A stretch of DNA of 64,000 nucleotides. It comes from Planctomycetota bacterium. Lineage in GTDB: Bacteria > Planctomycetota > Phycisphaerae > Sedimentisphaerales > Anaerohalosphaeraceae. Below the pieces are notes generated by a model, which ran no database searches, had not been told where the DNA came from, and saw only the letters and a program-made list of their open reading frames with translations. Position 1 is the first letter of the stretch. Each line of letters opens with the position of its first letter. A program made the position numbers and the translations under genes. The stretch is from positions 1-64,000 of the forward strand of contig VGXU01000003.1 in NCBI GenBank assembly GCA_016873215.1. Reading direction: 5' to 3'. Shown piece by piece: positions 3,974-38,275 of the stretch.

Positions 3974-4165
3974 AGCAGCGGCAAGCGCAAGCGAGCCGAT
4001 TTTTTCTCAGCCCGTAAGGGCGACATAGTGTAGCCACGGGCGCCAGCCCGTGGAAATCGATAAGAAAATCCCCAGCCCCCACAGGGGGCGACATAAAATA
4101 GCCGGGCGTGTAAACGCCCGGAACCGATTCTCTCACTCCCCCCTTTAAGCCCCAGCGGGGCGACA
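3974..4165. repeat. dispersed planctomycete-type intergenic repeat, copy 1
   Basis: The 335-bp gap after leuS holds a chain of small palindromes and no gene. It starts with a GC-rich block containing GGCAAGCGCAAGCGAGCCGA (3980-3999). Then come CAGCCCGTAAGGGCGACATA, CCACGGGCGCCAGCCCGTGG (a near-perfect palindrome), a GCCGGGCG...CGCCCGG stem and GCCCCAGCGGGGC. The same order of blocks occurs again at 8128-8258, and the first block recurs inverted at 58801-58827. The role is unknown. The stems could act as mRNA 3' structures for leuS. Confidence 0.75.
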
Positions 4166-31026: not shown

Positions 31027-31905
31027 TTAGTTGTTTTCCGCCGGGCCGGTTTCATTACGAGGCTCAGCCGTTTCTTCCACTGCCGGTGCTGAAGCCGGAG
31101 CAACGCGGGCATGCGACGTATCCTGACGGGACCGTCGACCTCTTGCCGCACCACCACCTCTTGCCGTACCGCCACCATCCCTGCCGCCACCGCTGCCATC
31201 CCTGCCTCCACCACTGCGTCCCTGACGACGAGGTCTGCCGCCACCGCCAGTCGGAACTATGACTTCCTCGCCGAATTTACCTTTGTAAATCCACACCTTG
31301 ATGCCGATGCACCCGTATGTTGTCACCGCAGTGGCGGTGGCGTAATCCACGTTGGCATCGAGCATCTGCAGCGGAATTGAACCCTTTTTCTGGCATTCGC
31401 TGCGGGCGATTTCCGCACCGCCGAGACGACCGCCGATAATAATCTTGACTCCTTTGGCCCCGGCATTCAGCGCGTTTTCGCAGGCCATTTTCATCACGCG
31501 GCGAAACGCCGCGCGTTTTTTCAGTTGCTCGGAAATACCCTCCGCCACCAATTTGCTGTCCAGCGAAGGCTCTTTAATCTCTATCACATTGATGTTAACC
31601 TTACGGTCAATGAGGCTTTCGACCTCTTCCCGCAGCTTATCGACTTCGGCGCCGCGCGGGCCGATGACCATCCCCGGCCGGGCGGTATGCAGGGTTATTT
31701 TCACTTCATTGCGGGTACGGGCGATTTCCGTCTTGGCCACCGCAGCATAAGGGGGCTGACGATTAAACTTCCTGTCAACAAATTCACGGATACGATCGTC
31801 TTCGACAAGAAACTCGCCATAGTTGGCCTTGGGAGCAAACCATTTACTCTGCCAGTCCAGCGTAATTCCCGTTCTGAACCCGATTGGTGATGTTTTCTGA
31901 CCCAT
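31027..31905 (-). CDS. rpsC: 30S ribosomal protein S3 (uS3) with a long Gly/Arg tail
   Basis: mRNA-entry protein with helicase activity. Residues 1-210 are a normal S3: MGQKTSPIGFRTGIT, KH domain with VIGPRGAEVDKL and the C-domain up to IKVWIYKGKFGEE. Beyond that about 75 residues form a low-complexity RGG-like tail (GRSGGGRDGSGGGRDGGG), then an acidic end. Similar basic S3 tails occur in some bacteria, but this one is long and resembles RNA-binding RGG boxes. Confidence 0.96.
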   Translation of the reverse strand: MGQKTSPIGFRTGITLDWQSKWFAPKANYGEFLVEDDRIREFVDRKFNRQPPYAAVAKTEIARTRNEVKITLHTARPGMVIGPRGAEVDKLREEVESLIDRKVNINVIEIKEPSLDSKLVAEGISEQLKKRAAFRRVMKMACENALNAGAKGVKIIIGGRLGGAEIARSECQKKGSIPLQMLDANVDYATATAVTTYGCIGIKVWIYKGKFGEEVIVPTGGGGRPRRQGRSGGGRDGSGGGRDGGGTARGGGAARGRRSRQDTSHARVAPASAPAVEETAEPRNETGPAENN

Positions 31906-35454: not shown

Positions 35455-35766
35455 CTATGCCTTGATTTTAACAAAAACGCCTGCAGGAACGACCAGCTTG
35501 TTGAGGGCTTCGACCGTGCGGGCATTGGCATCGTAAATATCAATCAGACGCTTATGCGTACGCATTTCAAACTGTTCACGTGACTTTTTGTCAATATGGG
35601 GACTGCGCAAAACCGTATAGCGCTCAATGCGCGTCGGCAGCGGAATCGGTCCACTAACGCGAGCGTTTGTACGTCGAGCCTGCTCTACGATTTCCTTGGC
35701 GGAACTATCCAGAGCTCGATGGTCGTATGCTTCCATTCTGATTCTGATTCGTTCGGTTTCCGTCAT
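35455..35766 (-). CDS. rpsJ: 30S ribosomal protein S10 (uS10)
   Basis: Head protein that also acts as the NusE partner of NusB in antitermination. The 103 residues include [40 protein letters not shown] and [12 protein letters not shown] 35766 is chosen because AAGGG lies six bases upstream; the frame runs on to a TTG two codons earlier. It is the first gene of the S10 operon. Confidence 0.97.
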
Positions 35767-36158
35767 GGTCAACCCTTATTCTATACCTTCGGTATCTACA
35801 TACCAAAACAAGAGAGCTACAAATGTATTCGCTCTACCCTTCAAAAACAAGAAAAAACAAAAATATCCCTTCCTCCGGACAAAAAAACTTTCCCGGCGGA
35901 ATACATTTTATTCGTTTGCAATCAAGGCAGGAAAGGCATCAAGTTTGCCTTACCTTACTATGGATGACCCGTTATTCGGGTATCCAACCATTCCAAAGCC
36001 ATTGTGCGGACTCAAATTAAACATAACTCTTTATTTCACAAGGCTTTGGCACGGCCCAAAAAGGCCTTTTTCTGCCGTCCATGAAATCTCTTTTGAGATG
36101 AACAGCCCAACTCGATACGCACGTAATCCTTTTTCGGCCGTGCTCGCTCGGCTGGAAA
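35767..36158 (-). ncRNA. structured leader RNA of the S10 operon with alternative pairings
   Basis: About 390 nt lie between the promoter and rpsJ with no reading frame, yet many stems. In transcript order, segment A GCACGGCCGAAAAAGG (36143-36128), an ATCTC/GAGAT hairpin, B GGACGGCAGAAAAAGG (36080-36065) and C CCTTTTTGGGCCGTGC (36064-36049). C can pair with A (15 of 16) or with B (13 of 16). Then D (36049-36037) pairs with 36006-35993 (13 bp, one bulge), ACCCG/CGGGT forms a hairpin at 35985-35962, and a 10-bp inverted repeat joins 35908-35899 to 35830-35821. An ATACC/GGTAT hairpin sits just before the rpsJ ribosome site. Confidence 0.7.
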
Positions 36159-36164
36159 AGCAAG

Positions 36165-36194
36165 ACTATACTACACTTTGGTTTTCTTTGTCAA
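36165..36194 (-). promoter_or_regulatory. strong promoter of the S10 operon
   Basis: On the minus strand a consensus TTGACA (36194-36189), an 18-base spacer and TATAGT (36170-36165). The -35 box contains the fusA stop codon TGA (36193-36191). Transcription should begin near 36158, before the structured leader. Confidence 0.8.
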
Positions 36195-38275
36195 TAACTT
36201 CCTGAAAGAATTTTCTCAGAAATCTGCCCCGGCACTTTTTCGTAGCTGAGCGGCTCCATTGTAAAGGTTCCCCGGCCCGCCGTGGCACCGCGTATCTGGC
36301 TGGAATAGCCGAACATTTCAGCCAGAGGCACCTTGGCATCAATGACGCGTACCCCGCCATGAACGTGAGAATCCGTAATTTCTCCGCGGCGGGCAACCAG
36401 ATTGCCCTGCACAACACCAAAATAATTCTCCGGCACAATGACCTGAATCCGCATCACCGGCTCCAGAAGTATCGGCCCGGCTTTAGACAGTAAATCTCTG
36501 ACTGCAATCATCCCCGCCTGTTCGAATGCCAATTCCGACGAATCCACTGTATGGAAAGAGCCATCTGTCAGCGTCACTTTGGCCCCGATGACGGGATACC
36601 CCGCCAATGCACCGCTGGCTAACCCTTCCTTCACGCCGTGTTCCACCGCCGGGATATATTCCTTCGGAACCGCTCCACCGATAACCGCGTTGACAAATTC
36701 GTTTTCTCTGGCGTAATGTCCGTCTTCCGTGAACAACGGTTCTATCTGAATCTCGACATGGCCATACTGACCGTGCCCGCCTGTCTGACGAATGAATTTA
36801 CCCGCCCCTTCGGCGACCTGACTGATTGCTTCTTTATACGCGACGCGCGGTTTGCCGACACGCACATTGACGCCGAGGTCACGAATCAGTTTATTCTGTA
36901 AAATTTCCAAATGCAGTTCGCCCATCCCGCTGATAATCGTCTGTCCTGTTTCCGCATCGTATTGGGATTTGAACGTCGGGTCTTCTTTCCGCAGCATTGC
37001 CATCGCTTCACCGAGTTTGTTGCGTTCTGCCGCCGAAACCGGCTCAATCGACATACTGATCACCGTATCCGGAAACGTAATGCTCTCGAGCATCACCGGA
37101 TGCCGTGTATCACACAATGTATCGCCGGTCAGCGTATCCTTCGGCCCCAGCACCGCGACGATATCGCCGGCCGAAGCCGAATCGATAATCTGCCGGGCGT
37201 TGGCGTGCATCTGAAAAAGACGTGTAATATTCTCTTTGACGTTGCGGTTGGGATTAAATACGCGTGTTCCCTTGGCCAGCATTCCCTGGTAAATCCGCAA
37301 AAAATACAAGTCGCCGTGTTTATCGCTGGTAATCTTAAAAGCCAGCGCCACCAGCGGCTTGTTCGGATCGCAAGCCACTTCCATTTTCTTGCCGTGGACG
37401 CCCTGCGTGAACCCCACCACCGGCGGCTTGTCTAAAGGCGATGGCAGATATGCCGTGACCGCATCCAGCAGCCGGCGTACGCCGATATTATGCAGCGCTG
37501 AACCCGTCAGCACCGGATTGATTTTATTGGCGACAGTCCCCTTGCGAAGTCCGCGACGAATCACGTCTTTCGGAATCGGTCGGTCGTGGATATACAAATC
37601 CATCAACTCATCATCAAATTCAGCAGCGGCTTCGACCATATCATGCCGCCATTGCCGGGCCGTCGCCGTCAGTTCCGCCGGGATTTCCTCCTCCGAAAAA
37701 CTGGCTCCGGTATCTTCCGCATGAAAATAAACCGCTTTCATAGTAACCAGGTCGATGAGTCCCTTGAAGCCGGATTCGGCACCGATGGGAATCTGTACCG
37801 CAACTGGATGCGCCAGCAGTTTATCGCGAATACTTTTTACGCACATCTCGAAGTCGGCGCCGACTTTATCCATTTTGTTGATAAAACAAAGACAGGACAA
37901 ATGATACTTTTGTCCCTGCCGCCAGACCGTTTCGGACTGCGCCTGGACGCCTTCGGAAGCGTCGAATACCGCCACCGCCCCATCGAGAACCCGCAGCGAG
38001 CGTTCCACTTCCGCGGTAAAATCCACGTGGCCGGGCGTATCAATCAGGTTGATGGTGTATTCGTTCCAGGGACACTTGGTCGCCGCTGAAGTAATCGTAA
38101 TACCCCGCTGCTGTTCTTCTTCAAGAAAATCCATCACGGCAGTGCCGTCATGGACTTCGCCGATTTTGTAGGTCTTGCCGCTGAAAAAGAGGATGCGTTC
38201 CGACACGGTGGTTTTGCCCGCGTCGATGTGAGCCATGATGCCGATGTTGCGTACTAACGTTAGATCATCCGCCAT
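36191..38275 (-). CDS. fusA: elongation factor G
   Basis: GTPase that drives translocation on the ribosome. The 694 residues have P-loop AHIDAGKTT near 16, a normal switch I ([15 protein letters not shown]), [12 protein letters not shown], and domains II to V through to the tail [16 protein letters not shown]. The canonical switch I contrasts with that of EF-Tu in this window. It follows a terminator placed after rpsG and has no room for a full promoter of its own. Confidence 0.97.

Follow-up and report, generated by a model that had tools for sequence, protein, structure and literature searches.

A structured, covarying RNA element upstream of rpsJ in Sedimentisphaerales as a candidate ribosomal-protein leader of the S10 operon

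Escherichia coli provides the textbook example of S10-operon control; to our knowledge, the S10 leader RNA is not conserved across phyla. In E. coli the control exerted by L4 includes premature termination within the leader (PMC7186457, PMC10931766). S10/rpsJ leaders have also been predicted in Firmicutes (PMC7247131, PMC11109978), and for the rplJL operon of Bacillus subtilis the work as cited in PMC10931766 describes a leader with a kink-turn that responds to L10(L12)4 by transcription attenuation. A search of the open full-text literature revealed no S10 or rpsJ leader for Planctomycetota, and no family in Rfam 15 scored above its gathering threshold at the locus described here. Judged from its sequence, the locus is best read as a new ribosomal-protein leader RNA that has previously not been catalogued.

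The locus is situated in a stretch of 64,000 nucleotides of planctomycete DNA (referred to as the window), in the gap between fusA and rpsJ (Table 1). The nearest relatives, judged by organism titles, are Sedimentisphaerales and Phycisphaerae. In 58 out of 59 related genomes rpsJ was found, its upstream DNA was taken and the fusA-rpsJ gaps, mostly ~290-500 nt long, were compared. The leader in the window is more stable than all of 100 dinucleotide shuffles (z = -4.28). Elsewhere in the window, rplV (L22; 31924-32472, minus strand) encodes an N-terminal extension of ~75 residues with a sub-threshold resemblance to the phage CII/Cro helix-turn-helix, and S3 (31027-31905, minus strand) has a long Gly/Arg-rich C-terminal tail (GGGGRPRRQGRSGGGRDGSGGG...). 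Positions 4074-4121 (minus strand) gave an Rfam match to the Acido-Lenti-1 RNA (RF01687), 46.8 bits against a gathering score of 37, in this planctomycete genome.

Table 1. Features of the fusA-rpsJ region, in positions of the window
Feature	Position	Strand	Remarks
fusA (EF-G)	36191..38275	-	neighbour upstream; stop codon overlapping the distal promoter
Distal promoter	36165..36194	-	TTGACA, 18-base spacer, TATAGT; 11/12 consensus
Conserved 5' domain	36103..36154	-	covariance model R1; covariation; 137/161 genomes of the order
P1	36154-36150 with 36107-36103	-	CAGCC with GGCTG
Internal loop	36149-36144 and 36118-36108	-	GAGCGA and GTATCGAGTTG
P2	36143-36139 with 36123-36119	-	GCACG with CGTGC
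Conserved block	36072..36083	-	CATGGACGGCAG (consensus CANGGAYGGYAG); overlaps segment B; accompanies H3
Variable middle domain, D stem	35993..36049	-	CCAAAGCC..GGCTTTGG; same-genus counterpart GCCAAAGTA..TATTTTGGC
3' hairpin H3	35926..35956	-	AAGGTAAGGC (35956-35947) with GCCTTTCCT (35937-35929), then GCC (35928-35926)
Intrinsic-terminator-like hairpin	35852..35901	-	TTCCGCCGG..TCCGGAGGAA (35901-35870); U-rich tract 35863-35852
Proximal promoter-like sequence	35822..35850	-	TTGTTT, 17-base spacer, TACATT; sigma70-like, just after the terminator-like hairpin
rpsJ (S10)	35455..35766	-	heads the operon rpsJ-rplC-rplD-rplW-rplB-...

The 5' domain was captured in a covariance model, R1, built from 35 sequences. 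Its internal loop is invariant and of the AGCGA / AGUU type, with GCGAGC in the 5' strand and GCG...A-G-T-T in the 3' strand. P2 is free to vary in both sequence and length. In an R1 alignment of 59 sequences 89.8% of the paired cells were kept, with 137 changes on both sides of a pair compared to 39 in shuffles, and in a second set of 69 distinct sequences absent from the model building, three of them weak and probably false matches, the same measures beat 500 of 500 shuffles, both alignments being fitted to R1. When substitutions replayed on a tree were used as the null, the five most variable pairs of P2 outranked all other column pairs, and for four of these five E was <= 0.02. Covariation is thus strong in P2 and weaker in P1, where the signal is less clear because the register slips by one base between lineages. 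P1 has changed on both sides in several lineages (CAGCC:GGCTG, GCGGCT:AGCCGC, ACAGT:ACTGT and TGGTC:GACCA), and when the tails were exchanged between genomes they paired significantly worse, Watson-Crick pairs falling from 4.68 to 4.08 out of 5 (0/300).

Transcription is predicted to start near 36158. Upstream of the motif, 56 of the 58 leaders carry the sequence TTGAC, whose distance to GCGAGC is 46-48 nt in most leaders. Lying only a few bases from the predicted start, and with a constant spacing to the promoter, the hairpin could serve as a 5'-terminal stabiliser, or as a processing or RNA-polymerase escape element, of a highly expressed mRNA without any feedback from a ribosomal protein. 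We regard this as very unlikely; the invariant internal loop together with the conserved blocks that follow the start at ~85 and ~210 nt suggests recognition beyond protection of the end, and the motif search revealed no other strongly expressed operon preceded by the motif.

At the other end, most leaders in the window's family carry a hairpin with a U-rich tail 80-100 nt ahead of rpsJ. The one in the window reaches -13.3 kcal/mol in its longer form and is not listed by a simple terminator scan. Among the 58 leaders, 19 contain a terminator-like hairpin of -9 kcal/mol or below, compared to a mean of 4.5 and a maximum of 9 in shuffles, and a recognisable terminator is missing from some; no antiterminator was identified in the leader. 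The number of genomes with a TTGNNN-n-TANNNT sequence rises sharply to 23 and 20 at n = 16-17, compared to 3-11 for any other spacing; a proximal promoter was identified in 42 of the 58 leaders and is missing in the remaining 16, some lineages having neither terminator nor second promoter. A 10-bp long-range complement pointed out in the preliminary description (AAATGTATTC/GAATACATTT, window 35821-35830 and 35899-35908) is present. It covers part of the proximal promoter around the -10 box, so that its pairing would engage promoter sequence, and this may be due to chance.

When searching for the motif itself, R1 was found to match 137 of the 161 genomes of Sedimentisphaerales (61 of the 66 of good quality) with essentially a single strong match per genome. 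Among 392 genomes drawn from Planctomycetota all strong matches belonged to this order, and outside it the draw gave weak matches only, the examined loci being without rpsJ; among 80 named loci the strong matches are the seven closest. L199 has rpsJ and no recognisable motif. Two Phycisphaerae outside the order, L060 and L061, have long fusA-rpsJ gaps (362-370 nt) in which a TTGAC promoter precedes, by a similar distance, a shared TCTGCGTC..; these gaps possibly contain a separate, different S10 leader.

The single copy per genome, the near-consensus distal promoter, the terminator-like hairpin and the separate rpsJ promoter in most leaders could all fit a free-standing, trans-acting small RNA of ~270-300 nt that is transcribed from a promoter to a terminator of its own, rpsJ being transcribed from the proximal promoter. 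However, the motif was never found away from rpsJ: flanking sequence was retrieved for 68 strong motif-first matches, every one of which is placed immediately before this gene on the same strand, and the three weak matches examined (<= 23.3 bits) do not lie upstream of rpsJ. The motif also stays at rpsJ when a gene other than fusA lies upstream, as in L136 and L142, which according to inspection of translated ORFs have a glycosidase-like and a rhodanese-like gene in its place, and in L139, which has a leader of the same type as L136 and no fusA match upstream. In L136 and L139 there is furthermore no terminator in the only ~210 nt between motif and rpsJ. The window's genome encodes its 6S RNA and its SRP RNA at other loci, and a missing housekeeping RNA of either kind was rejected as a candidate, the locus giving no match to the family models. 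Equipped as it is with a promoter and a terminator, the element might still be a separate small RNA, a reading that we consider unlikely. A dual output, in which termination before rpsJ would yield an order-specific trans-acting small RNA and read-through the S10 leader, while the second promoter would decouple basal synthesis from feedback, is in our judgement quite improbable.

Further into the leader, the CANGGAYGGYAG block sits ~85 nt after the start and H3 (TTAAGGAAGGC...GCCTTTCCTGCC) ~210 nt after it, the latter in most leaders at a distance of ~135-150 nt from rpsJ. Conservation of both extends over the window's family and a sister family. Double changes in H3, from GGC:GCC to GAC:GTC, were seen in L012, L024, L028 and L052, and in lineages without H3 the CANGGAYGG block is degenerate or missing, a largely joint loss in a comparison uncontrolled for relatedness. 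The GGYAG of the block may pair with CTGCC, a contact which is predicted by RNAfold in L003 and which shows no covariation and has exceptions. The Y at every third position of the GAY GGY block had hinted at an upstream ORF, a candidate that was rejected when 12 of 35 leaders were found to be without an in-frame start and the lengths and peptides to be unrelated. The middle domain is unalignable beyond the same-genus leaders. Its D stem (36049-36037 with 36006-35993) and the hairpin that comes next are both present, as first described, and comparing the stem with its same-genus counterpart reveals compensated changes (CCAAAGCC/GGCTTTGG vs GCCAAAGTA/TATTTTGGC).

The preliminary description had pointed to three segments on the minus strand, A (36143-36128, GCACGGCCGAAAAAGG), B (36080-36065, GGACGGCAGAAAAAGG) and C (36064-36049), with a model in which A and B compete for C and the choice sets expression. 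As a reading of the window its positions and pairings are accurate: A and B are identical at 14 of 16 positions, A and C form a duplex with 15 of 16 positions paired, and B and C are complementary at 13 of 16 by direct reading. The B:C duplex would need a loop of zero bases and is unable to close fully within one molecule, because the two segments adjoin with no bases between them. Of the shuffled leaders 3% contain an A/B repeat, and none of 150 dinucleotide shuffles reproduced the complete A/B/C pattern, which is therefore a fair observation on the window sequence.

As a conserved switch, on the other hand, the pairings did not survive the comparison of gaps across relatives. An A:C-type duplex of at least 14 pairs was found in the window only, 1 of 58 leaders, and is absent from all 57 others tested, those of the same genus included. 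Segment C is missing from both same-genus leaders (L002 and L003), a 16-base duplex between the A-equivalent and downstream sequence has a mean of 10.9 pairs over the 58 leaders compared to 10.8 in shuffles, and A in the window carries a 4-base insert that is present in no other aligned leader; the A:C duplex is thus private to the window genome. The 5' part of A, whose first five bases are the 5' strand of P2, pairs instead with CGTGC ~20 bases downstream, a pairing which covaries, and B holds the conserved CANGGAYGGYAG block, the first part of B being covered by it, which accompanies the downstream hairpin rather than C. In a full-length equilibrium fold of the window genome's leader A:C is favoured over P1 and P2 by ~6 kcal/mol, so that a species-specific competition between A:C and P1/P2 is possible in this genome; during transcription P1 and P2 would be complete before C has been made. 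A competition of A and B for C that sets expression is given next to no credence, and the A/B/C arrangement appears as a striking fold of a single genome that masks the conserved element beneath it. The wider proposal, that the gap holds an undescribed structured S10-operon leader, is upheld by the missing Rfam match, the covarying 5' domain and the position before rpsJ across the order.

The region is read as a ribosomal-protein leader because the element is tightly linked to rpsJ, has the sense orientation and covaries. More fully, it is proposed to be a cis-acting leader of the S10 operon, specific to Sedimentisphaerales, with a putative L4-responsive premature termination, and to this reading we assign a probability of roughly 0.65. 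Control by premature termination is suggested by the presence of the terminator-like hairpin. The leader would probably sense surplus ribosomal protein and lower its production. The comparison shows a strong distal promoter and a predicted transcript whose first bases form P1, the invariant internal loop and P2; in most lineages the second block and the 3' hairpin come next, and then the terminator-like hairpin and, shortly ahead of rpsJ, the second promoter. In the proposed mechanism an operon-encoded protein in excess over rRNA, most likely L4 by analogy with E. coli, would bind the invariant internal loop and stabilise a fold that allows RNA polymerase to terminate ahead of rpsJ, at the terminator-like hairpin. 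The distal promoter would then yield full-length mRNA solely when ribosomal protein is needed, and a basal level, independent of the leader, would come from the proximal promoter. Where no terminator is visible (lineages L136 and L139) the same domain would act on translation or RNA stability. Being compact, found throughout the order and provided with an invariant loop, the leader is a target for finding the protein that senses a ribosome surplus.

Among described systems, the S10 leader of Firmicutes (PMC7247131) and the Peptostreptococcaceae rpsJ motif RLC-47-1 (PMC11109978) are, like the present element, ribosomal leaders predicted before rpsJ by comparative genomics; both are reported from Firmicutes, and the present element matched no Rfam family. 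The rplJL leader of B. subtilis belongs to a different operon but resembles the mechanism proposed here in that a protein-stabilised structure promotes an intrinsic terminator. Its kink-turn also has a conceivable counterpart, since the GA / NA arrangement of the internal loop in Sedimentisphaerales could be kink-turn-like, although not a standard kink-turn because of the bulge of 5-7 nt and the variable G of the 3' GA. In 23S rRNA, helix H20 of domain I, which is part of the L4 site, has a general layout like that of the leader, a hairpin GCACGGA..UCCGUG(U/C)G on the short closing helix CCAG/CUGG with an internal loop. The loops differ, AGUA/GAAG in the rRNA and GNAGCGA/GNNNNNAGUU in the leader, and P2 of the leader varies freely whereas H20 does not; no convincing mimicry of 23S rRNA was found by sequence, the species' own L4 site being without a shared conserved loop. 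With the L4-controlled S10 leader of E. coli (172 nt) the element shares no covariance model in Rfam 15 and differs in having another promoter-proximal domain, a greater length and a second promoter before rpsJ, but the two are alike in their position before rpsJ, in being long, structured 5' UTRs and, as proposed here, in using premature termination within the leader for part of the control, and the leader described here could show whether L4 control arose repeatedly.
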